Origin: Porodaedalea pini | Lineage: Eukaryota > Basidiomycota > Agaricomycetes > Hymenochaetales > Hymenochaetaceae | Length of the DNA stretch: 64,000 bases | Direction of reading: 5' to 3' | Assembly (NCBI GenBank): GCA_002794775.1 | Contig: NBAY01000007.1 | Coordinates: 186,001 to 250,000 of the forward strand | Shown: positions 2,551-49,444 of the stretch, piece by piece | How the letters are laid out: each line of letters opens with the position of its first letter | Numbering within the stretch: position 1 is the stretch's first letter | Notes under the pieces: model-generated | Database searches by the model: none | What the model was told of the DNA's origin: nothing | Seen by the model: only the letters and a program-made list of their open reading frames with translations | Program-made: the position numbers and the translations under genes

Positions 2551-5500
2551 ATGTTTAACTCAAAACCACCGTCCACCCAAATAAAGTACAAGATTGCAGG
2601 ATGCTCGGAACACAGCGGACGCTACGTCGCGGATAACATCAAGCATGACCGACCACACGATCAGACCAGTCGCTGGAGCTCGGCGAAGGACAATTCCATT
2701 AGCGGGCGCTCGTGGATACTCCTTGAGATGGAAAATGTCACATTGCTCGGTGAGTTTGTCTCAAACTCTGATGCTCGACTACGGCAGTATGCCGTGTGTG
2801 CCCTATGTGGTTGTTTAAAGAGGCGATGGCAGAAGCAGGATTGATTGCCTTATCTCAAGCTCCCGGACGAGATTTTACAAAAATCTCAATGAGTCCTGAA
2901 ACATCATAGTGCTAGTATCATTCCGTTACGTGGCCTGGTTACTAACGCATAAGTTGCAGAGAGCATCACCTTTGGAAAGGTTTGAGGTCTATTGCATATC
3001 CATAAAGGCCGCCGCTCACCATGTCTTTAATGCAGTATCACAAAGGTTTGGTACATCTCAAGACATTATCCTCGTATTCTCACAGAAGCCATTCTAGCTC
3101 ATCCATGTAATATGAAAGACTTCGAAGTACACGTCGGCTTGTCTCGAGATCACTTGACGGAAGTGCTTCAGGCATCGTTAAGGAACGATCCGAAACCGGA
3201 AACATTTCTTCTTCTACATAAGAGCAAAGATGGAGTACAGTTTCCCACAAAATTTGTGAAGATCCTGTCCCTTTCGTGAGTCGCAGTATAAGTGCTAAGA
3301 AATCCTTAACTGATGTCTAAAACAAGTGCACACGGGCACAATTTTAACACTTCCATTTGGTATGTTGCGCTCTCCGGTATTCCAGATGGACCGTATGTGC
3401 AACGAGTAATAGATGGGTTTGAACAGGTGCGTTGGCTCATGAAGCTCGTCACACACCGCTCATTTTTATATTTTCAGAACCGGGAAACGCTAGCGATGCG
3501 ACACATACTGAAACATCTCCGCCAACGACGACACATCACTACTTATATCCAACTACAAGAACGTTCCGGCGTGCAGTTGGAGCACCCACTTGTCTCCGAG
3601 CTATATGAGAGACTCGTCCTACGAGGCGACTGGACCGCAACCGAGGCACATCTGCGTGCCCTCGCCTCCGCAGGTCTCTTCGCCGAATTCATACACACAT
3701 GCACGCCTCGAGCTCGTTGGCGGCGTCTGCACGGTACCGATGCAAATGGCGACGCGCCGAGCCGGCGGGGCGGGCACGCAATGTGCATGGATGTCGAGCG
3801 TGGCCTCATCTACCTCTTCGGCGGGTACGACGGCCACCGGAGCCTAGATGACTTCTGGGTATACAGTGTGCAAGAGGGGCGCTGGCGCGTGCTCAGTCAC
3901 AGCGTCGGCGAGGAGAAGAACGGACCAGGCCCGCGCGCGTGCCATAAGATGGTGTTTGATCCAAAGAATGGATGCATCTACGTGCTGGGACGGTTGGGAG
4001 ACGGCGACTTCCAGGAAGCCAGGACGACTGCGACTGCATCTGCTACTGTGCAAGGTGCTGAAGGCAGCGCGCCAGTGGAGCCTTCTCAAGGCTCGGGTCA
4101 GGTTCGAAGTGCCTGGAGCAACAGACGGTCTGTCGGAGTCGGGACTGCAAACGCAGTTGGGACACCCCCACCTCAGCCAAGTTCAAGCAGGCCACCTGCA
4201 GCACACGATTTCTTCTCTGAGCTCTATCGATATAGAACGCGCGGACTTGATCAAGGGAAATGGGAGCTTTTGAACTACGACACTGCCGTAAGGTTCTCTC
4301 TTCCATTTTTTGGTCTCAATACCGATGGCTTTTTTTCTATCTCTGGTAGATTAAAGGCGGTCCTAAGCTTATCTATGACCATCAACTAATACTCGACTCC
4401 GAAGCACAAGTTCTGTATGTCCAAGGTGGGAGAGTCGTCGACGACGAGTGGAAAATACCCAAGTACTCTGGTCTATACAGCTATGACCTCCGAACGGACA
4501 AGTGGACGATGATACAGTCAGCCAAAGCAATGAATTATAAGGGAACTCAGTAACTCAAGTTTATTATCTTCACAGGGCTAACACTTCAGAGGCTGTCTTT
4601 TCTCCGCGGTTCGGTATGGATTTTGTAATTTATTGCAACGCTATTCTAATCCTAAACACGGGGTACATAGGGCACTCAATGGTGTTTGAGCCGAATAAGA
4701 AGAAACTCTTCATCTTTGCGGGCCAGAAGGACGATTATCTTTCTGACATGTGGGAGTACGACATTCCGACCAAGTTCTTGACGGAGCTGTTCCAGAATGT
4801 CACTGCAGCTGGTGGGCCGGAAGCTTGCTTCGCTCAGCGAGCAGTAATCGACCCTGCGTTGAAGGAGATTTATGTGTATGTTCTGCGCATTTTCTGTTAT
4901 GATTGTTAGTTAAACTTCAACTTATAAGTGGCTTAGTTTTGCAGGAGTCGCCAAGAGAAATACGCAAGCATCCTCTAGACTTCCCGTTTCCCTGTACAAG
5001 TATGATACACGTCCGGGGACATGGATGCGCGTGCCAACAGCAGAGGCTGCCACACGACCCGTTCCTTCACCTTCAAATTCACAACGACTACAGCCGTCGG
5101 CGAAACGGCAGCGTAATGACGAAGGGAAAGGCGGAGAGGGGTCCAACAAGGGGGAGGACACGGACACGGACGAAAATGAAGAGCCGATTGCACGGCGCGC
5201 ATGCCAGGTAGTATATGATTCACGAACACAGACGTTCTATCTACATGGTGGAGCGGCTCAGGCGAGGCACGATCCGGTGAGAGGTGCTGCAGCGGAGACT
5301 GATGAGCGACTTGATGATTTTTGGAGTATGAAGCTGGAAAGGTGGGAGCGTTGCGCGATCATTTCGTCAATGAGTTCTTCCTCGCTTATACATGTTTTCC
5401 TATATGTGCAGACCTTCTCCAGAGGAGATCATTCGACGTGCAGTGTTCGAGATTCGGAGGCAACAGTGCGTATCTCAGACTTCTGCTTGCTTACTTTGTT

Positions 5501-13877: not shown

Positions 13878-14303
13878 TGTTAGGACTCGAACTTTTACCT
13901 TTTCCTTTATTTTCCCTTTTACCATTTCTTTTCTTCTAACCGCTCCTTTTCATTATATTTAATCGTCTTTTCAATCATTTCCCACACTCCCTCCACATGA
14001 CCTTCATTCGTTCCATTCCATTCGCTTATATAACTTTAGATAATATAGTCCCACAGTCGCTGCTATATAAGGTCTCAGGAATTGCATGAACTCCTTGTTC
14101 TGCTTTTCCTCTTACCTCCGCAACGACCTAGGTGAGACTCATCCTCCTTGTATTAGTTTAGACTTGTATTAATCCTCTTACCTCCGCAACAACCTAGCCT
14201 AAGTATAGCATGTCCCGAGTCCTCGCTCGAGTATAGCACGTCCCAGACGACCGTCAGCCGAGGCCTGCCCAGTCCAAGTCGTCTCCCAGACTCCCGCCTA
14301 ACA
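13878..14303 (+). repeat. 5' LTR of gypsy copy A
   Basis: 426 bp, TG...CA ends. It contains a TATA box (TATATAA, 14064-14070) and an internal direct repeat: CCTCTTACCTCCGCAAC at about 14108 and again at about 14175. It differs from the 3' LTR at about 22 positions, every one a transition, with no indel. Confidence 0.95.
14064..14070 (+). promoter_or_regulatory. LTR TATA box
   Basis: TATATAA lies 33 bp upstream of G14097. That G is the predicted transcription start because it is the first base of the 11-nt self-priming sequence. Confidence 0.65.
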
Positions 14304-14304
14304 T

Positions 14305-14315
14305 AAAAGCAGAAC
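14305..14315 (+). promoter_or_regulatory. Self-priming primer-binding site of gypsy copy A
   Basis: AAAAGCAGAAC starts one base after the 5' LTR. It is an exact complement of GTTCTGCTTTT at 14097-14107, which lies at the predicted 5' end of the transcript. No tRNA 3'-end complement (TGG...) is seen here. In Tf1/sushi-type elements the first 11 nt of the RNA fold back on such a site to prime minus-strand synthesis. Confidence 0.75.
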
Positions 14316-15015
14316 CCCACCCAGGCTCATCCCCAGCGTACGTCGTCGCTGTCAACTCGCCTTCACTCAGTCTAGAGGAGCGCTCCCCTCGACGGACTTG
14401 ACGTGTAAACCCCCTAAACAACAAATCCCAACCCAGCCCGGACGTTTTTGGACGTTTGTGTATTATGTAAAACTTCGCAAACCGACCTTTCCTGACCCTG
14501 GCTCTCCGCATCTCCCTTTGGTGGAGGAGCCACTTAACCTGGACGTGGGTAACATTACATGTACAGTCGTCGACATCGTTGTCGATTGTTATCACTGTCG
14601 CATCCTTCTGTCTCATCATCAACTTCGCCGACGAACCCGTCCAACATTGGTGTAACCCCAGATCGAACATGCAACCCATTCTGGTTCCCCCGCCGTCGTC
14701 AAAATAGATCTCACCGACGAACAGCGACAGGCCCTTCCTGCATCGGCGCGTTGGAATCCAGACTGACCAGGCTACGTCGCGACCAACAATAGTGGTGTTA
14801 CACACGACATCTGGTGGAGTGAAGTCCGGCACAGCTGGTATTTGTCAGACGAACGAGGAAGGAGAGCCAGGTGGCCCCCAGCCACTCCATCGTCACCTGC
14901 ACCGTCGACGTCTACTGTCAACCTACCACCGACTCCAGGTCCTTACCGTGAGGCTAATAGAGACCCTTCACCGCTGACCCCCCCTGAACCTTCAACGCCC
15001 GTACCTGAACCCGTG

Positions 15016-19000: not shown

Positions 19001-19694
19001 CTTTGATACAACGTGAACTTCCTCTGCAAACATGTCGGTGGAAGAATTCGTGAAGCACATTAAGGAGACTCACCGTGTCATGAAGGACAATCTGGTCAAG
19101 GCAGCAGAGGACATGAAGCGCTACCATGACCGAATGGCTGGAACTTCGGTGGAGTACAAGACAGGTGACAAAGTCTTCCTCGATGGGCGAAACATCAGTA
19201 CCGATTCACCGATGAAGAAGCTTGCGGACAAATGGTATGGGCCCTTTGACATTGTTGATAAGGTGGGAGCAAGCGCGTACAGACTCAAGCTCCCAAAACA
19301 ATGGAAGAAGGTACACCCAGTCTTCAATGAAGCCCTGTTGAAACCTGCTGTCGAACCTTCATTTGAAAGCCAGAAACAGCCGCCTCCGCCACCGCCGGAT
19401 ATTGTCGATAATGAGGAGGAATACGAGGTGGAGGAGGTCATCGACTCACGCCTACACCGAGGGAGACTACAATACCTTGTCAAGTGGGTCGGGTATAACG
19501 AACCGACTTGGAAACCAGAGACGGACTTCGGCGAGAACGCAAAGGAGGCGATCACTGAGTTTTATCGAAAACACCCCGGCGGTCCCCGAAAACTTGAGAT
19601 TCCCCACGAACAACTTTGCCCACGCTTTGTCAACACCGAACCGGACAACCTCGATCTTGGTTGGTCAGGACGCCCAACCTTGAGGGGGGGGTAA
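16074..19694 (+). pseudogene. pol of gypsy copy A (protease, RT, RNase H, integrase, chromodomain)
   Basis: Read in the -1 frame relative to gag. In order: aspartic protease (ALVDSGCTGSCINV), RT (FFIKKADKSLR, FGLCNAPATFQAF, YLNDILILS), RNase H (VEADSSNFALGGVLL), integrase zinc finger ending CDRCQ, catalytic core (DRGTQFD, NPSTAYHPQMDGQTERVNQE) and a chromodomain (YLVKWVGYNEPTWKPETDF). In-frame TGA codons at 16596, 17118, 18462 and 19014 break it. The Asp-to-Asn change in the YxDD box would by itself abolish RT. It ends at TAA 19692-19694, directly at the 3' LTR. Confidence 0.9.
19682..19691 (+). promoter_or_regulatory. Polypurine tract of gypsy copy A
   Basis: GA followed by eight G lies three bases before the 3' LTR, the expected place for the plus-strand primer. 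The coding sequence of pol overlaps it. Confidence 0.75.
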
Positions 19695-20120
19695 TGTTAG
19701 GACTCGAACTTTTACCTTTTCCTTTATTTTCCCTTTTACCATTTCTTTTCTTCTAACCGCTCCTTTTCATTATATTTAATTGTCTTTTCAATCATTTCCC
19801 ACACTCCCTCCACATGACCTTCATTCGTTCCATTCCATTTGCTTATGTAACTTTAGATAATATAGTCCCACAGTTGCCACTATATAAGGTCTCAGGAATC
19901 GCATGAACTCCTTGTTCTGCTTTTCCTCTTACCTCTGCGACAACCTAGGTGAGACTCGTCCTCCTTGTATTAGTTTAGACTTGTATTAATCCTCTTACCT
20001 CTGCGATGACCTAGCCTGAGTATAGCGTGTCCCGAGTCCCCACTTGAGTATAGCACGTCCCAGATGACCGTCAGCCGAGGCCTGCCCAGTCCAAGTCGTC
20101 TCCCGGACTCCCGCCTAACA
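19695..20120 (+). repeat. 3' LTR of gypsy copy A
   Basis: 426 bp, the same length and ends as the 5' LTR, followed by the CCAGG duplication at 20121-20125. The differences from the 5' LTR cluster at CG versus TG/CA sites, for example GTCGCTGC against GTTGCCAC. Confidence 0.95.
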
Positions 20121-35119: not shown

Positions 35120-35121
35120 TA

Positions 35122-35151
35122 AGGTAGACGAAAGTTAAACTCGACAAGCTG
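35122..35151 (+). repeat. Left terminal inverted repeat of the DDE transposon
   Basis: Starts AGGTAGACGAAAGTTAAAC and is an exact reverse complement of 45580-45609. Outside it lies TA. Similarity between the two ends stops abruptly after 30 bp. Confidence 0.92.
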
Positions 35152-36094
35152 TGACGCGCGTGGCGCTAACCTCACTTGCCTAATCTGGCTTCACACAACA
35201 TCAACGAAACTGCCTCTTCAACTGGACACAAGATCAAAATTGAGCCTCACAGAGTTGTTGGGATTGCAATTATCTACAAACCTGTGTTTTTAAAATTTAG
35301 AAATAATAACTTTTGATGATGTTATAAGAAGAAAAAAGTTTTTTTGTTGCAAATGCATCAGATTTTACTTTGCAACAATCTGACGAACTTTTGAAATTTT
35401 GACCACGGAAGTTTGGCCGCTCTCGGCTAATTCTATATGACAAATAACTTCCATTTATAGTAGTTTTAGACAATTACTAATTGTGCATATCCTCAGCATT
35501 TTCTCCCCTTCGACACTGCCTTGCCACAAAAAAGCACTATGCCACGCCGTTCAAACAAGGATTACAACTGGATAAAGAATCTAACGAGCAGAAAGGAGCT
35601 TGTGAGCAGTTCATGATATATTTTGAAACATATACCAACCTGTATTTCCTGTCAGGCTGCAGAACAGGAACCGGTCGAGACAATCTATGTCTCAGATGGC
35701 AGTGTGGACGAGACAGAGCAGCCCAATAGCACAGATGACCACCTTTCAGTATCCAGCCAGGAGTCCGAGGATAGTGACTATGGAGCAGACCTTGACCGAG
35801 CAAGCCTTGTTGATGTTTCAGGTGCTAGGGCCTTCTTCCAGGTGCTTTCAGACGGGCTTGCAGTATGGACTTCTTGTTTGAAGGAGCGAGCCCAACCTTT
35901 CAAATACAACAAAGTTAGTCTGCCATCCCAGAAACCTGCACGTACCATTAGAAACCAGAAAGCGAAGGCAAGGAAGGTGGAGGGGAAACTCCGAAACCAG
36001 GGATTTGCAGACATTCGAAGATTTTTTCAGCCTCGAGTGAAGTCTCAAGCTAGCGGTGCTGAACTTCCAGCCTCTGGTACTGATCTGGCTTCTG

Positions 36095-36099
36095 TCAAT
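36095..36099. repeat. Target-site duplication TCAAT, left copy (gypsy copy B)
   Basis: TCAAT directly before the left LTR is repeated directly after the right LTR at 42341-42345. Removing the element and one copy restores the open frame of the DDE transposon (...LASVN-EEIEHEE). Confidence 0.93.
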
Positions 36100-36512
36100 T
36101 GTTAGGCGGGAGTCCGGGAGACGACTCGGACTGGGCAGGCCTCGGCTGACTGTTGTCTGGGACGTGCTATACTCGAGCGTAGACTCGGGACACGCTTACT
36201 CAGGCTAGGTCGTCGCGGAGGTAAGAGGATTAATACAAGTCTAAACTAATACAAGGGGGACGAGTCTCACCTAGGTCGTCGCGGAGGTAAGAGGAAAAGC
36301 AGAACAAGGAGTTCATGCGATTCCTGAGACCTTCTATAGCGACGACCGTGAGACTATATTACCTATCATTACATAACGAGTGGGAATGGAACGAATGAAG
36401 GTAGTGTGGGAATGATTGTGTAAGATGGGTAAATATAATGAAAAGGACGAATATAATAAAGGAAATGGTAAAAGGGAAAATGAAGGAAAAGGTGAAAGTT
36501 CAGGTTCTAACA
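36100..36512 (-). repeat. 3' LTR of gypsy copy B (left side of the window)
   Basis: 413 bp. Read on the minus strand it begins TGTTAGAACC and ends CCCGCCTAACA. By eye it is identical to the LTR at 41928-42340. Confidence 0.95.
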
Positions 36513-39500
36513 TTACCCCCCTTCAAGGTTGGGCGTCCCGACCAACCATGATCGCGGTCGTCAGGCTCGGTGTCGACGAAGAGCGGACGGAGTCGTTGAC
36601 GAGGGATGTCGAGTTTCCGAGGTGCACCGGGATGTTTGAGGTAGAACTCAGCGATCGCCTCTTTCGCGTTCTCGCCGAAGTCCGTCTCAGGCTGCCAAGT
36701 AGGTTCATTGTAGCCGACCCACTTGACCAGGTACTGTAGTTTCCCTTGGTGCAGACGTGAGTCTAAGACTTCCTCGAGTTCGTATTCCTCCTCGTTGTCG
36801 ACGATGTCTGGCGGCGGCGGCGGCGGTTGCTTCTGGCTTTCAAAGGACGGTTCGACGGCGGGTTTCAACAGGGCTTCGTTGAAGACAGGGTGGACCTTTT
36901 TCCATCGCTTCGGGAGTTTGAGCTTGTACGCGCTCGCTCCTACCTTGTCGACGATGTCAAAGGGGCCGTACCATTTGTCTGCGAGTTTCTTTGTCGGCGA
37001 GTCCGTACTGATGTTTCGCCCATCAAGGAAGACCTTGTCTCCAGCCTTGTACTCCACCGAAGCTCCTGCTGTCCGGTCATGGTAGCGCTTCATGTCCTCT
37101 GCTGCCTTGACTAGATTGTCCTTAGCAACGTGATGAGTCTCCTTGATGTGCTTGGCGAATTCTTCCGCCGACATGTTGGCAGAGGAAGTTCGTACGGTGT
37201 CGAAGCTCATAGGGTGACGTCCGGTGTTTGCGTAGAAGGGTGACATCCTTGTCGCTGAATGTTCGCGGTTGTTGTAGGCGAACTCTGCGAGGGGGAGCCA
37301 GTCCTTCCAGTCCGATTGCCGATGATCGACGAAGAGCCGGAGGTACTGTTCGAGCTCTTGATTGACGCGTTCCGTCTGACCGTCCGTTTGTGGGTGGTAT
37401 GCCGTTGACGGGTTGCCTTCGATGTGTAGGAGTTTGTATAGCTCCTTCATCATCGACGCATCGAACTGTGTGCCTCGGTCGTGGATGATTTTCTTCGGTA
37501 GGCCATGGAGGCGGAAGACGTGGTCCCGGTATAACTGAGCCATGCCTTCCGCTGATAGTTTCGTCGTCGTCGGGATGGCATGTATCTGTTTCGAGAATCT
37601 GTCCACGAAGACGCAGATTGCATTGTGTCCCTTAGAGTCCGGGAGTTCTCCGATTAGGTCGACCGTGACGATCTCCCAGGGACCTTCAGGGATCGCGTTA
37701 GGATGAAGCGGTCTCGACCTGGACGTTCTTAAGGCTTTCGTCCGTTGGCAACGGTTGCATCCTCGGACGTATGTTCGGACATCGGAGAATATTGACGCCC
37801 ACCAGAAGTCTCGACGTACCAGTTCGACCGTCTTCGACGATCCAGGATGTCCTGCCAGGGTCGAGTCGTGGTACTCTCGCAATACCGCTTCCTTCATCGT
37901 CGACGGCACGTACACCTTGCCTTTCATCCGCCACAATCCGTCGACCTTCACCATATTCGTCGGCCTCTCCGACTCGTCTTGCGCTCTCTGCGCCTCACCC
38001 ACTCGTTCCAACATTTCATCACGCGACGTCCTTACCACCCCACGGTTCAGCCATTTCTCCTTGATGAACACGACGCCGTCATTGTCATCCTTGCCCTGAT
38101 CATAGCCTGCCTTGCGTGACAGCAAGTCGGCCTTGCCCATTGTCTTCCCCGACTTGTGTTCGAGGTGGAAGTCGAATTCCTCGAGTTCGGTTCGCCAGCG
38201 AGCTTGACGATAGCTCAGCTTCTGCGCTGACCTGAAGTAGGTGAGGTTGGCGTGGTCGGACCAGATTTCAATCTTGTGGCGAGCGCCAAGGAGGTATTGC
38301 CGCCACTCCTTGAGCGCCGAAACGATCGCGAGCATCTCCTTGTCGTAGATCTCGTAGTTTCGTTCCGCCGGTTCAAGTGCCTCTGACCTGTAGGCGATCA
38401 CCCTCCACTTCCCTTCCTGCTTCTGCAACAACACACCACCGAGCGCAAAGTTCGACGAGTCCGCTTCTACGCAGAAAGGGCCCTCGTCATTGGCGATGGC
38501 TAGGACTGGAGGTGAGCAGAGACGTCGTCTCAGCTCCTCGAACGCTTCCTGCTGTTCGGTCTCCCATACCCAGTCCTTCTTGCCCGTTAACAACGTCAAC
38601 GGTCGGACCACCTTGCTGTAGTCCTTAATAAACCGTCTCAGCCAGTTTCCCATGCCGAGGAACTGTTGCAGCTCCTTGAGGTTCCGTGGGACTGGCCAGT
38701 TCGCAATCGCCTCCGTCTTTGCCGGGTCAGCCCTGATCTCTCCATTGCCGATGATGTGGCCGAGGTATTTGACGACCTTGGCGTCAAACTCGCACTTCTC
38801 CGGCTTCAGGTACAGGCCATTCTCTCGGAGGATCTGGAGTACGCGCCTCGACGTGTCGATATGCTCCTCAATGGTTTCCGAGAGGATCAGGATGTCGTCG
38901 AGGTATACAATGATCAAGTTCGCATAGATTAGGTCCTTAAAGATGTGGTTGACAAAGGCCTGGAATGTGGCCGGCGCGTTGCAAAGGCCAAAAAACATGA
39001 CCGTCGGTTCGAAGAGGCCCATGTTCGTGCGAAACGCTGCCTTCCATTCGTCACCTTCGCGAATCCGGATATTGTAGTACCCCCAGCGAAGGTCAAGCTT
39101 AGTGATGTATTTCGCTTTCTTGACCTTGTCGACGAGTTCGTCAATGAGAGGGAGGGGATACTTGTTCTTGATCGTACCGTCATTGAGCTTACGGTAATCC
39201 TGGATGGGGCGTAGCGATTTGTCGGCCTTCTTAATGAAGAAGAAGGGTGACGCCATGGGCGATATCGACCGTCGAATGCGACCCGACTTCAGGTTCTCAT
39301 CAAGGAAGTCTTTGAGTGACTGCTGCTCAGTCGGCGTGAGCGGGTAGATCTTACAGTCGCTCGGTTTGAAGTCGGGCTTCAAGTCGATGACATGGTCCCA
39401 GGGTCGGTGTTCCGGCAGCTTCTCGAAACCTTTTTCGCTGAAAACGTCGGCGTAGTCGTTGAGGTATGCGGGCCAGGACGTCTTGTCCATTCGCATCTCA

Positions 39501-40162
39501 CTCACCCTCCTCATCTGCTCCACCACCTTCTTCACCTCGCCTAGGTCCTCCACCGACTCCCTCTCGATCGTACATTCTTCTGGACAGCGGGTGAATTCGA
39601 TCGAGCCCGTTTTCCAGTCGACCTCCGGATTGTGACGTCGAAGCCAGTCGTACCCCAGGAAGATGTTCGATGACGCTAGGGACGTTACTGCGAGGACGAT
39701 CTTCTCCCGATGACGGCCGATCGTGAGTTCGACGTCAACATACTCCTCGATCAATCCGGCCTCATTGTGCGTGCCATCGGCGTTTAGTACCGCGAGGGGT
39801 CGAATGTAGTGTTTCGTTTCCAACCCGTACCTCTCGACGAACCTGACGTCGATGCAGGATCCCGTGCATCCCGAATCCACAAGGGCATGCGCATCTACCT
39901 CTCTCGCCTCACCAGCTATTTCATGCTCGACGGTCAGGAGAAGGTCCAGCTGGCGTCCGCCAGTTCCTCTCATGAACAGTTGTTCGTACTTCTCATTCTT
40001 GTTCACACCGGTGGAGACTTCGTAATCGGGAAAACCATCGACGTTGTTCGCATCTACGTATTGTACAGACGGTTGGTTATATTTTAGCGGATCCGGATTC
40101 GAAGTCTCTTGTTCTTCTCGGTCAGTCGCCCCGATGGCTACGCCTGACCATTCGCAAAACCC
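36500..40162 (-). CDS. pol of gypsy copy B (protease, RT, RNase H, integrase, chromodomain)
   Basis: Open from the frameshift heptamer at 40156-40162 to TGA 36500-36502. There is no ATG at a suitable place, so expression as Gag-Pol by a -1 shift is the likely route. In order: protease ALVDSGCTGSCIDVRF, RT FFIKKADKSLRPIQDYRKL and YLDDILILS, RNase H VEADSSNFALGGVLLQKQ, an integrase His/Cys finger ending CNRCQ, catalytic residues in VTVDLIGELPDSKG, IIHDRGTQFD and AYHPQTDGQTERVNQELEQ, then a chromodomain, LQYLVKWVGYNEPTWQPETD. The chromodomain places it among chromoviruses, whose integrase targets methylated-histone chromatin. The frame runs through the polypurine tract and a few codons into the 3' LTR (GGNVRT), whereas copy A stops at the LTR edge. 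Confidence 0.95.
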   Translation of the reverse strand, partial: GFCEWSGVAIGATDREEQETSNPDPLKYNQPSVQYVDANNVDGFPDYEVSTGVNKNEKYEQLFMRGTGGRQLDLLLTVEHEIAGEAREVDAHALVDSGCTGSCIDVRFVERYGLETKHYIRPLAVLNADGTHNEAGLIEEYVDVELTIGRHREKIVLAVTSLASSNIFLGYDWLRRHNPEVDWKTGSIEFTRCPEECTIERESVEDLGEVKKVVEQMRRVSEMRMDKTSWPAYLNDYADVFSEKGFEKLPEHRPWDHVIDLKPDFKPSDCKIYPLTPTEQQSLKDFLDENLKSGRIRRSISPMASPFFFIKKADKSLRPIQDYRKLNDGTIKNKYPLPLIDELVDKVKKAKYITKLDLRWGYYNIRIREGDEWKAAFRTNMGLFEPTVMFFGLCNAPATFQAFVNHIFKDLIYANLIIVYLDDILILSETIEEHIDTSRRVLQILRENGLYLKPEKCEFDAKVVKYLGHIIGNGEIRADPAKTEAIANWPVPRNLKELQQFLGMGNWLRRFIKDYSKVVRPLTLLTGKKDWVWETEQQEAFEELRRRLCSPPVLAIANDEGPFCVEADSSNFALGGVLLQKQEGKWRVIAYRSEALEPAERNYEIYDKEMLAIVSALKEWRQYLLGARHKIEIWSDHANLTYFRSAQKLSYRQARWRTELEEFDFHLEHKSGKTMGKADLLSRKAGYDQGKDDNDGVVFIKEKWLNRGVVRTSRDEMLERVGEAQRAQDESERPTNMVKVDGLWRMKGKVYVPSTMKEAVLREYHDSTLAGHPGSSKTVELVRRDFWWASIFSDVRTYVRGCNRCQRTKALRTSRSRPLHPNAIPEGPWEIVTVDLIGELPDSKGHNAICVFVDRFSKQIHAIPTTTKLSAEGMAQLYRDHVFRLHGLPKKIIHDRGTQFDASMMKELYKLLHIEGNPSTAYHPQTDGQTERVNQELEQYLRLFVDHRQSDWKDWLPLAEFAYNNREHSATRMSPFYANTGRHPMSFDTVRTSSANMSAEEFAKHIKETHHVAKDNLVKAAEDMKRYHDRTAGASVEYKAGDKVFLDGRNISTDSPTKKLADKWYGPFDIVDKVGASAYKLKLPKRWKKVHPVFNEALLKPAVEPSFESQKQPPPPPPDIVDNEEEYELEEVLDSRLHQGKLQYLVKWVGYNEPTWQPETDFGENAKEAIAEFYLKHPGAPRKLDIPRQRLRPLFVDTEPDDRDHGWSGRPTLKGGNVRT
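36514..36524 (-). promoter_or_regulatory. Polypurine tract of gypsy copy B
   Basis: Minus-strand AAGGGGGG, then TAA, directly before the 3' LTR start (TGTTAG). It is the plus-strand primer site, as in copy A but with six instead of eight G. Confidence 0.7.
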
Positions 40163-41217
40163 TGCGAGTCGACGACCTCTTCGTTATCGCCTTCTCCCTC
40201 CACATAGTCCTCCACCGTCGACCTCCGAGTGTCTACGACTTCCTCGAAGGCCGACTCCTTCATCGCTCCGAGCTTGTCGGCGAGGACACGACGTTCGCCT
40301 GGCGCCATCAGTTCCAGCATGCGCTGGATGATCGGTTTCGCCTGTGGGCACTTGTCTTTAAAGTGGCCCAGCCCACCACAGATCCAGCACGCACGTCGTT
40401 GTTGTGCCTCGTTCATCGAGACGTCCATCGGTTGACCAGCGCCTCCAAAGGTGACGCCGGTCGCATCGCGTCTGTCGACGTGAGGGGCCGCTACCTGACG
40501 GCGAGTTGGGGGCGCTTGTTGTGGTAGGTGAGGAGGGGGAAGAAAGGCGCGTCCTCGTTGGATAGCGCGAATCTGCTGTTCGCCGCGGTCTATTTCAATC
40601 GCCTTGTTCTTCCAATCCTCGTATTTCGTTGGGACTGGCGTCGACCTTAGCACTCCACGGACCACCTCGATGTTCATCGCCCGCTTGAGGCGATCGCAGA
40701 TGACGCTGTCGTCTTTCAACTCGGCGCGCTTAATTATCACGTCGAATTTCTGGAAGAACTCGTCCGCGGTTAGGTCCTTCTGAACCTTATCTCGGAAATC
40801 CTTCAGCGCTTTCTCCTTGCGATTCGGGTCGTCGAACGAGGCGTCGAGTCGTTCCTGGAATCTTTCCCAGCTGTCGGTGAAGGTGACGATCCCCGACGTT
40901 GTCGACTCCTCGACGTAGTTCTGCGCCCACGTTGCCGCATTACCACCCTTCAGGTAGGAGAGAGCTACATAAATCTTACTCTCTGACGTAGGGTATCGAC
41001 TTGGATTTGCGGATACAAAAAGGAGGACTTCACGTCTGAAGTCGAGGTAATCGTCGCCACCGGTGAATTCTCGTGGCCGGGCGACATCTATGTTGGGGGT
41101 CGGGGGGTTAGCGGCCGCGACTGGTGCTGGGGCGTTGTTCGCCTGATGGGCGAAGGCATTCGCAACGATGGCCGCGATCTGCGCCATTTGCTGTTGGCTG
41201 AAACCTTCTGCTGACAT
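40138..41217 (-). CDS. gag of gypsy copy B
   Basis: Capsid/nucleocapsid polyprotein of 359 aa. Start ATG 41217 (MSAEGFSQQQMAQIAAIVAN). The retrotransposon gag domain includes TGGDDYLDFRREVLLFVSAN, YVALSYLKGGNAATWAQNYV and WERFQERLDASFDDPNRKEK. The single CCHC knuckle is CWICGGLGHFKDKC. An acidic tail follows and the gene stops at TAG 40138-40140. The open frame extends upstream of 41217 without an ATG, so a non-ATG or earlier start is possible. The heptamer GGGTTTT lies 15 nt before the stop, in the X XXY YYZ register. Confidence 0.93.
   Translation of the reverse strand: MSAEGFSQQQMAQIAAIVANAFAHQANNAPAPVAAANPPTPNIDVARPREFTGGDDYLDFRREVLLFVSANPSRYPTSESKIYVALSYLKGGNAATWAQNYVEESTTSGIVTFTDSWERFQERLDASFDDPNRKEKALKDFRDKVQKDLTADEFFQKFDVIIKRAELKDDSVICDRLKRAMNIEVVRGVLRSTPVPTKYEDWKNKAIEIDRGEQQIRAIQRGRAFLPPPHLPQQAPPTRRQVAAPHVDRRDATGVTFGGAGQPMDVSMNEAQQRRACWICGGLGHFKDKCPQAKPIIQRMLELMAPGERRVLADKLGAMKESAFEEVVDTRRSTVEDYVEGEGDNEEVVDSQGFANGQA
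40156..40162 (-). promoter_or_regulatory. Candidate -1 ribosomal frameshift heptamer, gag to pol
   Basis: On the minus strand the gag codons CAG GGT TTT GCG contain G GGT TTT, a canonical X XXY YYZ heptamer. Slipping back one base gives GGG TTT TGC GAA TGG, which is open continuously into pol. Copy A has GGATTTT at the same point. Confidence 0.65.
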
Positions 41218-41915
41218 CGCGGGTTCAGGTGCGGGTGTCGAAGGTTCTGGAGGAGTCGGCGGTGAGGGGTCTCTGTTGGTTTCGCGGTAAGGACCTGGGG
41301 TCGGTGGTAGGTTGACTGTAGACGTTGACGGCGCAGGTGACGAAGGAGCGGCTGGGGGCCACCTTGCTCTCCTCCCTTGTTCGTCTGATGAATACCAGCT
41401 ACGCCGGATTTCACTCCACCAGATGTCGTGAGTGACGCCGCTATTATTGGTCGCGACGTAGCCTGGTCGGTCTGGATCCCAACGGGCTGAAGCAGGAAGG
41501 GCCCGTTGCTGTTCGTCGGTGAGATCTATCTTGACATTGGCGGAGGGACAGGGATCGGTCGCGTGTTCGATCCGGGGTTACGCCAACGTTGAGCGGGTTC
41601 GTCAGCGAAGTTGATGACGAGGCGGTAGGATCCGAGTGAGATTACAAACGAGATTGTTGTCGAAGTTTGGACTCGTCTTGTTACCCACGTCCACGTTAGG
41701 TGCGTGCTCCACCAGAGGCTAATTCGTAGAGCCAGGGTCGGGAAATGTCGGTTGATATATTTACGTAATACACGAACGTCCGAAAACGTCCGGGCAGGGT
41801 TGAGGGTTGTCGTTTAGGGGGTTTACACGTCAAGTCCGTCGAGGGGAGCGCTCCTCTAGACCGAGTGAAGGCGAGTCGACAGCGACGACTTACGCTGGGG
41901 ATGAGCCTGGGCGAG

Positions 41916-41926
41916 GTTCTGCTTTT
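41916..41926 (-). promoter_or_regulatory. Self-priming primer-binding site of gypsy copy B
   Basis: Minus-strand AAAAGCAGAAC, one base inside the 5' LTR, is complementary to GTTCTGCTTTT in the R region of the 5' LTR (plus-strand positions 42123-42133). The arrangement is the same as in copy A. The TATA-like element here is TATAGAA, about 34 bp upstream. Confidence 0.75.
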
Positions 41927-41927
41927 A

Positions 41928-42340
41928 TGTTAGGCGGGAGTCCGGGAGACGACTCGGACTGGGCAGGCCTCGGCTGACTGTTGTCTGGGACGTGCTATAC
42001 TCGAGCGTAGACTCGGGACACGCTTACTCAGGCTAGGTCGTCGCGGAGGTAAGAGGATTAATACAAGTCTAAACTAATACAAGGGGGACGAGTCTCACCT
42101 AGGTCGTCGCGGAGGTAAGAGGAAAAGCAGAACAAGGAGTTCATGCGATTCCTGAGACCTTCTATAGCGACGACCGTGAGACTATATTACCTATCATTAC
42201 ATAACGAGTGGGAATGGAACGAATGAAGGTAGTGTGGGAATGATTGTGTAAGATGGGTAAATATAATGAAAAGGACGAATATAATAAAGGAAATGGTAAA
42301 AGGGAAAATGAAGGAAAAGGTGAAAGTTCAGGTTCTAACA
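41928..42340 (-). repeat. 5' LTR of gypsy copy B (right side of the window)
   Basis: 413 bp, apparently identical to the left LTR. It holds the predicted promoter and the 11-nt self-priming sequence. Confidence 0.95.
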
Positions 42341-42411
42341 TCAATGAGGAAATTGAGCATGAAGAACGATGTACCGAGCATCCAGAGAAACACGTGCAGC
42401 TGTCCATTCCG

Positions 42412-42438
42412 GAGGAGGAGGAGGAGGAGGAGGAGGAG
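42412..42438 (+). repeat. (GAG)n tract at the left border of the captured segment
   Basis: Nine GAG triplets in frame (poly-Glu). A second tract of about the same length occurs at 43587-43613, and the Atf1-like sequence lies exactly between them. Confidence 0.85.
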
Positions 42439-43585
42439 AACACATGGTCCTCCTCAGCCGGTTTCACAGACTCCCTGCGCACCGGCCCCCTTTCACCCGC
42501 CATGTTCGCTGGCCATCGACCCAGCACAAGCCCTCAGATGCCTTCTCCAGTCAACAATAACCACTCACCGACAGTCTCCACTCGTGCCAGAAACAGTGCC
42601 TCCGTCGACAACGCAGACCGCGACCACACACAGGACACAAATCAGAACCCACCTCCCCGCCCTCCACTCCATAGCAACTTCGAGCTCGAGCCGAATCCGT
42701 TCGAGCAGTCATTCTCCGTCTCTTCATCGTCCTCCTTCACCTCACTCCGCCGTGCCACCAACCAAAAAAGTAGCAGCAGCAGCAATGACGATGGCAATGG
42801 CAACAATGTCAGGCCCTCTCCGCCCTCGCCTGGGAAGAAGTCCCCCTCCACTGTGTTGTCCTCGACCCAGGGGTCCACTCACTCGTGGAAGATGTCAATG
42901 AGCAATGGATCCGCCCATCCGAACGGCGACGCTGCGAAGCCGACCTTGCCTCCGCTCGCTTCGATCACCTCCCCCTCAGACCCAAGCTATGCATGGTCGT
43001 TCTCCTCGGCAGGTCTCACAAACTCCCTGCGCGCCGGCCCTCTTTACCCCGCCATGCTCGCTGGCCCACAGACACAACAACGCATCGCGTCGTCTCAGCC
43101 TGCTGCCTCCATCGCTGCTCTCGCAGCAAACGCTGGCTCTTTGCACCCCCCGCTCTTTGGCTTTGATGCCTCTGGCTCCTTTCGTACAGGTCTCACTCCC
43201 TCCACAGGCTTCACGCCCCTCGTCGGCGGGCCAGTCGCATTCCCGCTGCCATCGCCCAACACCGCCGCCTTTCTTGCTATGGTCAATTCGGGCGCTGCAG
43301 GTAGTGCGGCCACGGTGACCGTCACGCCCAACATGCTCGACGCACTCGCTGGTGTGCTTCAGCAGTCTACATCCGCAACACCGCAGGTGGGCAACAATCG
43401 AACGGCAGCAATAATCCAGGCGCTCCGTTGTCCTCGACGCAGTCACAGGCTGTGCTGCAGACGTTTGTCGTTCCGTCGCAGATGGCTGCATCTGCATCGA
43501 CGACGTATCAGAGCAGTCCATTGGCCAATACAGGTAATGCACTCACCGGTGTGCTTCAGCAGTCTACATCCGTGACGTCGCAGCT
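42439..43585 (+). other. Captured Atf1/AtfA-like bZIP regulator segment inside the transposon
   Basis: In frame with the transposon N-terminus the sequence shows NFELEPNPFEQSFS, KPTLPPLASITSPS, LTNSLRAGPLYPAMLAGPQ, GSFRTGLTPSTGFTPLVGGP and PLPSPNTAAFLAMV, in that order. This is the order of conserved blocks in the regulatory (HRA/HRR, 'Aft1' type) half of fungal Atf1/AtfA stress bZIP factors. No bZIP domain follows. A second, diverged copy of the SLRTGPLSPAMFAG block lies ahead of the first block (about 42450-42516). The 22-base string around GTGCTTCAGCAGTCTACATC also occurs twice (43356 and 43548). One frame slip occurs near 43390. Flanking (GAG)n tracts suggest how it entered. Confidence 0.72.
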
Positions 43586-43586
43586 G

Positions 43587-43613
43587 GAGGAGGAGGAGGA
43601 GGAGGAGGAGGAG
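43587..43613 (+). repeat. (GAG)n tract at the right border of the captured segment
   Basis: Nine GAG triplets encoding poly-Glu, mirroring 42412-42438. Both tracts are preceded at short distance by CAGCTG. Confidence 0.85.
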
Positions 43614-45579
43614 ACACAGTCAAATCCGAACCTCAACGAGTGCACGCAACTGCAGGAGCAGAACCCAGCACTTCTGCAACCTATGATTCAACAGATCGCA
43701 CAGTCAAATCCAAACCATCTGAAGTTCCGTGCTCCTGATTGAAAGGACCCTGCCCTCGCTGATGCGATATGGCGACTTTATTGCCTATCGAAAGATGACA
43801 GTCTTGACCTCTTTTTTCGTGGACGTGTGTCGGGGATGCTTGTCTTTTTGCGCCTATATACTGAGTACACCGAGTTTGGCTGGGTTGAGGCGTCAGTAAT
43901 GGCAGCAACTGTTGCTGCTGGATGTGGTCCTCACCTGACATGTTTGCTTCAAAAATGGGTCCGAGAACATCTTGAAGACCATCGCGTGCTGCCTGTGAAC
44001 CTGTATGGTGAATGGAAGAGGTCAATAATTCACAATGAGGATTTTGTGAATGAAATACATGCTCACCTGCAAAGCCTCAGTAAAAAATACCTCGACCCCC
44101 ATGACATCCTCTCATATCTCAATCAGCCAGATGTGCTGAAGCAGCTTGGACGGTCAAAGCCAGTGACATTGCGAACTGCTCAAACCTGGATGAAAGCCAT
44201 GGACTATCGGTACGGAAAGGCACCTAGTGGGATGTATGTTGACGGTCATGAAAGAGAAGATGTAATCCAATATTGCCAGGAGATCTTTTTGCCTCTGTGG
44301 GCAGAGCTCGAGAAGGAGATGGTGTTGGAGGGAGACAATGAAGGAGATTGTCAAGGCCGTCTCATTCTCGTCACGCATGATGAATCAACATTTTATGCAA
44401 ATGATCAAAGGACTTTGAACTGGAGCCACAAATCTACTACTCCTAAACCGCACGTTAAGGGAGAAGGAGTATCTATTATGGTTTCTGATTTTTGCACACC
44501 TGAGGCAGGATGGTTGAAATCCGCAGATGGGTATGTATTTTCAGCACTTTGCTTGTACATTTATTGATAATTGGATTCTGTAGCACTCGAGAGGCTCGTG
44601 TTTATTTCAGAGCAGGTAAAAACCGTGAGGGCTACTTCCAACATGAAGATATCATCAAGCAAGTTGACAATGCCATTACAATTTTTGAGGATTGTTTTCC
44701 AAATTGCACTGCCCTCTTTGCATTTGACAATGCTACAACTCATCAAAAGCACTCAGCTGATGCTCTGTCTGCACGACATATGCCAAAAAATCCCTGCTAT
44801 TGGAATAGCAAGAAAGCACCAGTAGCTCCTGGAATGCGTCCTGGTCATCACAAAGATGGCACTCTGCAATCCTTTTATTTTCCTGATGGGAGATTTAAAG
44901 GAACAGCTCAAATTCTTCAGGAGCGAGGTTACAATGTGGATCGCTTAAACTCGGAATGCAAGAACTTCAAGTGCATGGATACCAGTCCAAATGCACGATG
45001 CTGCTGTCGGCGAATTTTATTCAATGAGCCTGACTTCCGTGTGCAGAAATCTGCACTTGAAGAGCTTATCGAATCACGTGGCCACAAGGCTATTTTTTAT
45101 CCAAAATTCCATTGTGAGCTGAATTTTATTGAACAGTGCTGGGGACAGGCAAAATATTATTATCGGATGAAGGATAGACCTAATAATGAAAAGGAGATGG
45201 AGCAGAACATAAAAATTTGCCTTGACCAAATCCCTTTGGAACTATTTAAACAGTGTGTTTTTGTTTATTTACCAATTACCAGTTCAAGACATTGATATTT
45301 ATTTAGCTTTGCTAACTGCTCAGCGTGGTTCATGGATTGTTACCATCATGGATTGAATGGGAAACAGGCACAGTGGGCAAACAAAAAATACCATGGCCAC
45401 AGAACACTACCAGATAGATTTATGACAGAGATGGAGGCTCATGGAATATAACAAATGTATTTCTCATTTTACAACAGCTAACAAAACTTTTCAAAATTTT
45501 GACCTCACGATTTTGGCCGCTAGGGTCCTTCCTAATGGGGTAAGCGAGGGGTTCAGGGTCCGTGACAGTGATGTGACAT

Positions 45580-45609
45580 CAGCTTGTCGAGTTTAACTTT
45601 CGTCTACCT
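45580..45609 (-). repeat. Right terminal inverted repeat of the DDE transposon
   Basis: Exact 30-bp inverse of the left repeat, followed by the TA duplication at 45610-45611. Confidence 0.92.
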
Positions 45610-45611
45610 TA

Positions 45612-47040: not shown

Positions 47041-48296
47041 ATGGCCGACCAACTGCGCTACCTTGGCTCGCTGCCTGGACACAAGGGATGGGTGACCGCG
47101 ATTGCGACGTCGTCCGAAATCCCAGACATGATCCTCACCGCGTCGCGCGACAAGACTATCATCGTCTGGCAGCTTACCCGCAACGACGAGTCTTACGGCT
47201 ACCCAAAGCGTGTCCTCACTGGCCATAACCACTTCGTTTCTGACATCGTCATCTCCTCTGATGGTCAGTTCGCACTCTCATCCTCCTGGGACCACACCCT
47301 CCGTCTTTGGGACCTCAACACCGGCGCAACTACCCGTCGTTTCGTCGGCCATACTTCCGACGTCCTTTCCGTCAGTTTCTCTGCTGACAACAGACAAATT
47401 GTCTCTGGCTCGCGCGACCGGACGATTAAGGTCTGGAACACCCTCGGCGAGTGCAAATTTGACATCAAGGATGACGGACACACTGAATGGTGCGTTTATA
47501 TTATCATGTTATTTCTTCCTTCTCCGTCCATTGAAAATATGTCTATTAGGGTTTCCTGCGTTCGCTTCAGCCCAAACCCAACAAACCCTGTGATTGTATC
47601 CTGCGGTTGGGATAAAGTTGTCAAGGTAAGCTTCGTGCTCTTCAATTACTGTGTTCCCTTCAAACTCTCTGTTTCGGAATGATGTTATATCTTTATATAT
47701 TTGCTACTTCAGAGGGCAGAAACCCAATGAGACTATTTTTCCACCAAGATCTCTGACCGCTCATAGCTGTTTATGATGTTTTTCATCGATGCATTTCTGA
47801 CTGTTCAAATCTACAGGTCTGGGAACTCACGAAGTTCAAGCTGCGCACTAACCACTACGGCCACACCGGCTACATCAACACTATATCTGTCTCGCCAGAT
47901 GGTTCCCTTGCCGCATCTGGTGGTAAGGATGGCATCACCATGCTTTGGGATCTCAACGACGGCAAACACCTTTACTCGCTTGAGGCTGGTGACATCGTCA
48001 ACGCCCTCGTCTTCTCGCCCAATCGCTACTGGTTGTGCGCCGCAACTGCAAGCTGCGTCAAAATCTTCGACTTGGAGAGCAAGTACGTTCAACTTATTCT
48101 TACGGTTTTCATATGTCATGGATCTTACGCTCGACTACGTATCAGGTCTATCGTCGACGAGCTCAAGCCTGAGGCTGAGACCGGCTCGAGCGGCTCGACG
48201 CCTGAATGCGTGTCCCTTGCGTGGTCGGCCGATGGCCAGACTCTCTATGGTGGTTTCACTGACAACCTCGTCCGTGTCTGGTCTGTTATCTCCTAA
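47041..48296 (+). CDS. RACK1: RACK1 / Cpc2, Gbeta-like WD40 ribosomal scaffold
   Basis: Seven-bladed WD40 protein bound to the head of the 40S ribosomal subunit, linking translation with kinase signalling. Exons 47041-47489, 47550-47625, 47817-48082 and 48146-48296 give 313 aa, the family length. Blades are visible as [12 protein letters not shown]...[19 protein letters not shown]...[20 protein letters not shown]...[16 protein letters not shown]...[24 protein letters not shown]...[26 protein letters not shown] and [20 protein letters not shown], ending WSVIS. Intron 2 (47626-47816) is three times longer than its neighbours and holds a U24 snoRNA. Confidence 0.97.
47675..47759 (+). ncRNA. snR24: U24 (snR24) box C/D snoRNA in RACK1 intron 2
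   Basis: 85 nt. The terminal stem CGG (47675-47677) pairs with CCG (47757-47759). Box C ATGATGT is at 47679-47685 and box D CTGA at 47753-47756. The guide upstream of box D reads CCACCAAGATCT, and the internal part has ATTTGCTA, both close to vertebrate and yeast U24, which directs 2'-O-methylation of large-subunit rRNA. Hosting in a RACK1/ASC1 intron is a known situation in yeast. It lies well inside the intron, consistent with release by exonucleolytic trimming. Internal boxes C' and D' are degenerate. Confidence 0.85.
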
Positions 48297-49444
48297 AAGC
48301 ACCGCAGATAGGTGCGGGATACTTCACGGTGGAGTGACTTCTGTATGGCTTGGTACTGTATAACAGCATCGCTTGGTGCTGATGCAACGTGCTTCCGAGT
48401 CCGAATGCAATCTACGTTTCTTCGCATGTTATTGTTATCGAGTGTTTTTTCATGTCACATTGATTTTTACTTCCGAAGAATCCCTCATTGCAGACGTCAT
48501 TCCAATGCTCCTCAATGTTCAGCAAGCACTCGAAGATGCAAGGGAGGATAAGAACTTGCCAGGTGTCCTGCGCATAGCAGCTCATGCAGGTGCTGACGAA
48601 TGTACTCCGTATCTTCTCGGGTTTAAGTGCGAGGGTAAACTGGCAAACTCTTTCCAACATCAAGGGACTTGATCTCGTAAGGTGCATATCAAAGCACTCA
48701 CCGCGCAAACCGTCGCGTATGTTCGAAAGCGGGACGGAAATCATGCTAAGTCACGGTCCTGTTCGCAAAAAAAAAAGATTCGTCAGTTCAATATTAAGAT
48801 CCGATCGCTTCAATCTGTTGCATGATATCGTGATTGATAGCATACATATGACGAGAAAGTGACTTTGAAGCATGTTCAACGGCGATACGGATTAGGCAGG
48901 CGACCTGTCGTAAAAATAGTATGTATGCATTTGATTCACTGCTCAAATTCATCGAACATAAGGCTTTCCTTACAATACAGGGCAGGAAAACGGATTTTCA
49001 GTCTGTCTACATTTATTCGGGATAGGGAAACACTTCAAGCGCGTGAGCATTACCGCTAGTACTCATAAGTGTTAGCCCACCTCGCGCTACCTGATGAGCT
49101 TTGCTCGATTGTTGAACTTGTTGCACATTTGCATACGCCATTGATATTGGCTAACCGAAGGCACAACGGCAGATGGCAAAACGGCTAGGTCAGTGATCCG
49201 AGTCCGCGCATCTGCGCGATGTGCCCGCCCGATGTGGGCTCGTCGCCTGAGTCGGATCCGTAGTTGAAGTTCAGGTCTGATGCGAGCTTGTCCGTGAGTA
49301 ATGGCCGCAAAACGCTTTGCTCATACGAATTGAAGGGCCGCGCCCCCGAGTACCGTTTGGTTTGACACACGGTGACTTCCGTCGATAGGTTTCCTTCCCC
49401 GTCATTATGAGAGCTATCCGGCGTATACCCGCCCACACCTCACC
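48297..49444. other. Intergenic region between convergent RACK1 and MED1
   Basis: The 3' flanks of both genes. The minus frame 49185-49436 (GARPFNSYEQSVLRPLLTDK) looks protein-like but lies beyond the MED1 stop and has no clear splice link to it. I leave it unassigned. Confidence 0.45.

Follow-up and report, generated by a model that had tools for sequence, protein, structure and literature searches.

The window, a stretch of 64,000 nucleotides of Porodaedalea pini DNA, contains a TA-flanked DDE transposon split by a recent LTR retroelement (Table 1). Read directly from the sequence, the retroelement has a 5-bp target duplication, and LTR-related stretches with 86-87% identity to its LTR occur at 13878-14330 and 19694-20120. 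From position 42341 onward the transposon presents a short stretch, a (GAG)9 tract, a duplicated ATF1 block, 1013 bases of ATF1 sequence, a second duplicated ATF1 block, another (GAG)9 tract, a RAD23 fragment, and then the catalytic part of the transposase. The initial annotation had described two GAG tracts around a segment encoding LEPNPFEQSF, SLRAGPLYPAMLAG, FRTGLTP and PSPNTAAF, and all of these are present. It had placed the transposase next after the second tract; the transposase does follow, but the RAD23 XPC-binding fragment (43617-43718) comes first. The transposon frame that was thought to enter from upstream of 42341 is actually an LTR end, with a 100% identical copy at 36100-36513, and the transposon's own left part lies 6 kb upstream, at 35120-36099. 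Downstream of the transposon, at 47041-48363, is a WD-repeat gene that by eye resembles RACK1.

Table 1. Features of the transposon in the window.
Feature	Position	Strand	Basis and remarks
DDE transposon, TA-flanked	35120-45611	+	30-bp terminal repeats adjoining TA; split by LTR retroelement
Transposon left part: terminal inverted repeat (TIR) 35122-35151 by a TA, transposase gene start	35120-36099	+	99.1% identity to intact copy C75 (L035 3431-4410); TIR search
N-terminal domain of chimeric transposase, family-specific, DIRRFF motif at end	35737-36042	+	genome search, 99% identical; 18 genome matches
LTR retroelement inside transposon	36100-42340	-	LTRs 36100-36513 and about 41928-42340 100% identical (blastn within window); minus-strand ORFs
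Transposon right part	42341-45611	+	TIR 45580-45609 and TA at end; 97.9% identity to C75 over 3272 aligned positions
(GAG)9 tract, left cargo joint	42412-42438	+	7 repeats in five sister copies examined
Partial ATF1-block duplicate, diverged	42443-42514	+	83-84% identity to host gene and to main copy
Captured host ATF1 fragment: Aft1_HRA region, weak OSA part, without bZIP	42514-43526	+	91.2% nucleotide identity to C68 gene (L040), 1029 aligned positions; Pfam on C75 copy and host
Second partial ATF1 duplicate	43536-43583	+	87.5% to host
(GAG)9 tract separating ATF1 cargo from RAD23 cargo	43587-43613	+	9 repeats in 4 of 5 sister copies, 6 in C27
RAD23 piece taken from the host (XPC-binding domain), in part duplicated	43615-43718	+	Pfam XPC-binding at 43617-43718
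Transposase catalytic part (D-D-E), two inferred introns, TGA in window copy	43722-45452	+	96% to C75; one TGA over first 270 residues; C75 introns placed by hand

Compared with the copy on contig C75, the window copy lacks one base near 43389 and carries TGA in frame at 43740-43742. Because of these two lesions, besides the inserted retroelement, the window copy is dead, and the readable frame once attributed to the segment is broken.

The initial annotation had proposed that a host Atf1 fragment was captured without its bZIP domain, and had suggested searching the genome for the intact homologue. That search, with alignment at the nucleotide level, locates the gene on contig C68 (L040), with 93.4% identity to copy C75 and 91.2% to the window copy (1029 aligned positions), and bears the proposal out. 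The host gene continues into the bZIP domain, which by Pfam is missing from the element. The captured region in C75 matches Aft1_HRA (E 3.9e-16) and, under the cut-off, part of Aft1_OSA (E 0.05). On intron loss, which it had been expected to reveal, the alignment is silent for this piece, as the ATF1 segment spans no host intron and reads open in a single frame of the host gene. All 51 protein-database matches to the C75 protein, seeded with words from its first 500 residues, carry bZIP or Aft1_HRA and none carries a DDE domain; among the matches listed, the Atf1 regions nearest to it belong to Fomitiporia, Sanghuangporus, Coniferiporia and Phellopilus, which points to Hymenochaetales. Two blocks do recur inside the segment as diverged copies, as had been noticed at the start, at 42443-42514 and 43536-43583.

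One genome, of 53.3 Mb in 201 contigs, was searched for related elements. The N-terminal domain was found in 18 places. A search with the catalytic part led to these 18 elements again, and to five further places with weak matches. In every one of the 18, host cargo occupies the same position, between the N-terminal and catalytic domains. Comparison of copies with and without the ATF1 segment, as had also been suggested, gives eight with ATF1 cargo, seven of them also scoring for XPC-binding (RAD23), and ten that instead hold a SNF2 QLQ piece, accompanied variously by pieces of RAD23, CEF1, Tat-SF1 and antisense AHCY. These counts are of related copies, some of which may be haplotype duplicates, and do not represent independent events. 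A RAD23 region is seen twice with 99.9% identity, near two contig ends (L051, C7 near 22 kb; L052, C11 near 889 kb); the two contigs are probably overlapping or haplotypic, and copy counts may thus include duplicates. Sequence was read for 14 of the 18 elements, the window included, all but C77, C4, C157 and C6:1183k.

A single stop-free frame runs from the N-terminal domain to the catalytic part in seven of the 18 elements (C75, C27, C5:1078k, C6:1150k, C77, C11 and C6:1183k). In C75 (L035), the reading from ATG through cargo to the end of the transposase comprises 1161 residues with three inferred introns. In 11 of the 13 copies without a large insert (gap below 2 kb), the two domains are separated by a multiple of three nucleotides, and the gap takes six lengths: 1404, 1419, 1428, 1698, 1872 and 1926. 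Stops are present in the two exceptions, C3 and C33, and also in part of the 11, C29:185k and C1 among them.

In five copies of the ATF1 clade (window, C75, C5:1078k, C29:185k and C179) the terminal repeats are present at the two ends, next to TA, and the flanking sequences differ, which indicates that the cargo spread by transposition after capture. The 30-bp TIR is perfect at both ends in the window, C75, C5 and C179, and has two mismatches on one side in C29:185k. GAG tracts are located at the cargo joints in this clade, with left and right repeat numbers in six copies of 9 and 9 in the window, 7 and 9 in C75, C5, C29:185k and C179, and 7 and 6 in C27. The suggestion that capture proceeded by template switching at triplet repeats is compatible with tracts at the joints whose length varies between copies.

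Database searches for relatives of the fusion cap or filter candidates, and their negative results hold among the matches listed. With that scope, neither the whole C75 protein, seeded from its first 500 residues (51 matches), nor the catalytic part (120 listed of 290) gave a closely related fusion in other genomes. The N-terminal part plus cargo of L045 gave three matches, all with SNF2-type QLQ and HSA domains, and no fusion relative among them.

Six parent genes for the cargo are found in the same genome: ATF1, RAD23, SNF2, Tat-SF1, AHCY and CEF1. RAD23 supplies the XPC-binding domain in the ATF1 clade. In the SNF2 clade it supplies either part of a linker or its last UBA domain, and the UBA piece starts at an inferred exon border. 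In the C75 copy, RAD23 sequence matches the host at 91.5% over 59 nt and 100% over 20 nt, and the C75 protein scores for XPC-binding at E 3.5e-7. SNF2 cargo consists of QLQ and neighboring blocks, repeated. An RRM gene that we take to be Tat-SF1-like, Pfam itself giving RRM, matches at 91.3% over 299 nt and was found only in C1. A CEF1/CDC5 piece in C6 matches at 90.4% over 250 nt. The AHCY piece, up to 94.4% identical over 108 nt in C11, is antisense, and it is the antisense frame that is read. SNF2 and AHCY pieces are common to all six clade B copies whose sequence was read. Identified pieces make up 93% of the C75 cargo and 55-56% of the cargoes of C11, C6 and C1. The first domain matches came from translated frames and were sense-biased; DNA searches of three cargoes then found the antisense AHCY and CEF1 pieces.

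ATF1, SNF2 and Tat-SF1 pieces sit in open host frames. The CEF1 piece includes an inferred intron that is 58 nt long in the host gene. In L047 and L048 it measures 57 nt and is stop-free in the element frame; in L050, the CEF1 intron pattern was looked for and not found. The one-base difference would keep the frame whether the stretch is read through or spliced. Introns are removed in retroposed captures, and retention of this one means that at least the CEF1 cargo came from DNA.

TA lies on both sides of all five ATF1-clade copies with both ends found, a trait of IS630/Tc1/mariner elements. In C75, PF13358 (DDE_3) scores 24.3 bits and falls short of the 28.6 cut-off; it is present in 102 of the 120 transposase relatives listed (of 290), which are 38-47% identical among the matches listed; those with names we take to be mostly from Agaricomycetes. 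The NCBIfam IS630 model scores 56 bits on relative P0059, against a cut-off of 100. In 30 aligned relatives D346 and D444 are at least 90% conserved and E604 is invariant; the corresponding C75 residues, chosen by motif, are D846, D944 and E1079. The spacing from the second D to the E is usually about 34-40 residues in Tc1/mariner (DD34-like). In C75 it is 134 residues, which does not match that form. TA, TIRs and D-D-E agree with IS630/Tc1/mariner, with an atypical spacing. Invariant cysteines between the second D and the E (P0059 residues 548-561) are possibly metal-binding. Among the 120 listed relatives (of 290), no second Pfam domain besides DDE_3 was found, and the N-terminal domain had no blastp match. 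The DIRxFF motif of the family's N-terminal domains (35737-36042 in the window, and others) may resemble the PCNA-binding start of RFC1. The 17 matches from searches against solved structures were weak (E 0.05-0.08), all to ryanodine receptors, and are put down to chance.

The cargo is far younger than the elements carrying it. Between C75 and C29:390k, fourfold sites outside CpG are identical at 41 of 62 in the transposase and 43 of 47 in ATF1 (Fisher P 0.002); between C75 and C3 the figures are 39 of 74 and 61 of 70 (Fisher P 1e-5), where the two C3 transposase pieces counted overlap by nine codons. The same holds in the SNF2 clade, where third positions in the transposase and in the SNF2 piece, respectively, are identical at 121/262 and 37/41 for C11-C6 (P 5e-8), 124/262 and 30/41 for C11-C1 (P 0.002), and 130/262 and 31/41 for C6-C1 (P 0.002). 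Divergence of the N-terminal domain between elements is about that of the transposase. Cargo so much younger than its carriers must have been captured repeatedly or exchanged between lineages. Non-CpG private changes in the ATF1 cargo number 20 in C29:390k, 17 in C3 and 6 in C75, with pair-shared counts of 4, 2 and 1, a pattern near a star around the host gene, and in a small tree the host gene groups with the pieces from C3. C11 and C6, by comparison, have nine derived sites in common in their SNF2 pieces, five of them outside CpG. AHCY site patterns come from short stretches and carry little weight. Repeated capture would fit the ATF1 star, and exchange between elements would fit the common SNF2 sites. 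A comparison using the whole host region shows that the ATF1 pieces of C75 and C3 stop at the same 3' base, host position 4302, which speaks against a clean split into repeated capture and exchange. The early expectation that capture or duplication took several steps gains support from the partial repeats, from the contrast in age between cargo and flanks, and from the site patterns. Cargo turnover may be continuous, because decayed old cargo goes unrecognized.

We favor an explanation, with a probability of about 70%, in which a tolerant slot in the transposase is refilled with fragments of host DNA and the filter is mainly an open frame, not the function of the captured domain. It draws on the six parents, the common slot, transposition after capture in the ATF1 clade, duplication within cargo, the younger age of the cargo, the one intron kept, and the weak amino-acid constraint on ATF1 cargo. 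A TA-target, IS630/Tc1/mariner-like family would have had a tolerant slot between its N-terminal and catalytic domains, into which host fragments would have been copied from DNA, most likely by template switching during repair of a broken or excised element. In the ATF1 clade, the GAG tracts would be likely slippage or joining points. Afterwards cargo would have been partly duplicated, deleted, and exchanged between element lineages, and elements whose slot stays open in the transposase frame, with a predicted fusion protein, would remain mobile and so spread the cargo. Several observations count against parts of this. The ATF1 cargo may be under purifying selection (P 0.05 and 0.09 on two branches), and the QLQ and UBA pieces look constrained between elements; RAD23 was captured in sense three times, which, if these are separate events, exceeds the prediction of an open-frame filter; the UBA piece starts at an inferred exon border, as one from spliced RNA would; and the common 3' limit of ATF1 in C75 and C3 would fit one capture instead of repeated refilling.

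An unlikely alternative holds that the captured pieces are functional domains, with ATF1-HRA, XPC-binding, UBA, QLQ and RRM tethering the transposase to chromatin, repair or ubiquitin partners, or interfering with the host protein. Pfam recognizes these domains in the elements (RRM only under its cut-off), the best element QLQ scores 49.5 bits where the host scores 48.4, and in S. pombe Atf1 the HRA is a defined region for recombination activation (PMC2677671). Five of the six host genes are read in sense and in frame, but an open-frame filter accounts for this bias: for at least five of six genes in the sense frame, P is 7e-4 with no filter (1/6 per gene) and 0.17 under it, and the apparent selection for domains is gone. 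AHCY is antisense, and pieces are partial and repeated.

Selection was estimated as omega corrected by a null that keeps the types of mutation, that is, with a matched mutation spectrum; where cargo was captured separately, paths between elements would include the host branch. The transposase is strongly constrained, with corrected omega of 0.13-0.34 on five older branches (154-262 codons, all P <0.002), where the test therefore has power; two young branches, with 3 and 11 changes, give 0.60 and 0.79. The ATF1 cargo is near neutral, its protein little constrained and purifying selection weak or absent, with 0.64 for C3 piece C (P 0.09), 0.92 for C3 piece A (P 0.39), 0.71 for C29:390k (P 0.05), 0.87 for C29:185k (P 0.34), 1.13 for C5 (P 0.70), and 0.67 for the host branch plus element stem (P 0.13). 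Naive dN/dS had suggested strong ATF1 constraint (0.39-0.48 for host and cargo, 0.37 for C75-C29:185k), a signal rejected as largely CpG decay, which accounts for 61 of 67 changes on the C29:185k branch. The RRM cargo gives 0.71 (P 0.21). Constraint on the QLQ and UBA pieces is possible, and would favor functional domains: QLQ against SNF2 gives 0.24-0.33 in five of six copies (0.53 in C33) and 0.28 for C6-C1 (P 0.01), and UBA gives 0.42 for C11-C1 (P 0.03) and 0.12 on the C11 branch (P 0.02; one nonsynonymous to five synonymous changes), with 0.79 on the C1 branch (P 0.51). The QLQ constraint, however, falls mainly on the host-plus-stem branch (0.16, P 0.003), and C6-C11 gives 1.09 (P 0.77). 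The proposal that the fusion acts as a dominant interferer or a tether fares poorly, with ATF1 amino-acid constraint weak or absent, one captured gene antisense, and the window copy broken; for other cargo pieces it may still hold. We favor the tolerant slot over a captured regulator with a job.

Another reading, which we likewise doubt, would make the slot a dedicated variable region of the transposase, recurrently rewritten, with host coding DNA inserted, reshuffled and handed on among lineages that have transposases diverged almost to saturation at silent sites; rewriting would refresh interaction domains or likeness to housekeeping genes, and shield the element from homology-based silencing or retarget it.

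Quite improbable is cargo as nucleotide camouflage, in which pieces of housekeeping genes make homology-based silencing costly for the host. This would account for cargo that is antisense or holds an intron, for its repeated refreshing, and for the weak constraint on its protein. The CpG observed/expected ratio is 1.07 in the host ATF1 segment and runs in element copies from 1.13 (C75) down to 0.20 (C29:390k), with CpG loss, strong in some, in the copies corresponding to 42341-45611 (L038, L039, L042). This methylation-like decay tracks the element and spares the parent ATF1, as camouflage would have it. Several element copies are nevertheless CpG-decayed: of the 62 substitutions between window and C75 in the right part, 51 are CpG losses in the window copy. 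Silencing-like decay thus does get to the elements, and as only recent cargo is recognizable, refreshing may be an ascertainment effect.

A single ancestral capture per clade, inherited vertically since, is very improbable. The common end at host position 4302 in C75 and C3 agrees with it, as do the SNF2 and AHCY pieces shared by the six clade B copies, but cargo far less diverged than both flanking domains contradicts it unless gene conversion from the host or another element overwrote the cargo, and the near-star of ATF1 sequences and the joining of host with C3 pieces also stand against it. That the region is an ordinary part of the transposon's own protein, or a chance likeness, is refuted by 91% nucleotide identity over 1 kb to a host gene, by 51 of 51 protein matches with bZIP or Aft1_HRA and none with DDE, and by the 120 listed relatives (of 290), which show no Pfam domain besides DDE_3.

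Among the best matches listed from the open-licence literature there was no published account of such a cargo-slot family, and the nearest systems among them are hAT-histone H3 elements (PMC3538342, PMC6710886), Helitrons (PMC4289320) and Pack-TIRs. Pack-TIRs and Pack-TYPE elements of metazoa and plants likewise hold host gene fragments between TIRs and multiply them by transposition, and gap filling or fork stalling with template switching has been proposed for Pack-TIRs (PMC8277862, PMC8903248). Pack-TYPE elements are described there as non-autonomous, without transposase, whereas here cargo lies inside the transposase frame of intact-looking elements whose activity is predicted from sequence, seven of 18 with a single frame through cargo into transposase, and six genes have been exchanged or recaptured across lineages of one family. 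In the hAT-histone H3 transduplications of Pyrenophora and Pseudocercospora, too, a fungal DNA transposon amplifies host coding sequence, and Pyrenophora also has a non-autonomous derivative that is an in-frame chimera, and a Tc1/mariner element carrying an additional ORF (PMC3538342, PMC6710886). In Pyrenophora the histone sequence forms an ORF of its own, and in Pseudocercospora it is intronless, copied from a transcript or retrocopy; in the present family the cargo is an internal part of the transposase, with the CEF1 intron kept. Pleurotus Helitrons are, like these, Agaricomycete elements with captured genes, but they are rolling-circle elements with genes downstream of the helicase (PMC4289320). 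Helitrons lack TIRs and target duplication, whereas TIRs, TA duplications and a DDE transposase are present here. CSB-PGBD3 and Metnase similarly join a host protein region to a transposase; there a host gene acquired a transposase, and here a mobile element acquired host fragments. Its several copies at distinct TA sites set this family apart from a domesticated, immobile, host-controlled fusion gene.

Host genes captured by DNA transposons are generally seen as cargo next to the transposase or in its place; in this family the capture takes place within the transposase gene, at one site, and mostly in frame. Judged from sequence, host pieces in the transposase frame would be new protein combinations tried out inside a mobile element, a natural experiment in the origin of domain combinations, the frame filtering of captures, and the traffic of host sequence between element lineages. 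With parents, carriers and flanks in one genome, the age, source and selection of captures are directly measurable.

Partial matches to the transposon's right part occur elsewhere in the genome. Four loci (C106:76386, C94:82143, C86:91643 and C26:500918) match only the last 411 bases of the right-part query, at 97-98% identity, and others match about 177 bases at 86-92%; these may be non-autonomous derivatives.
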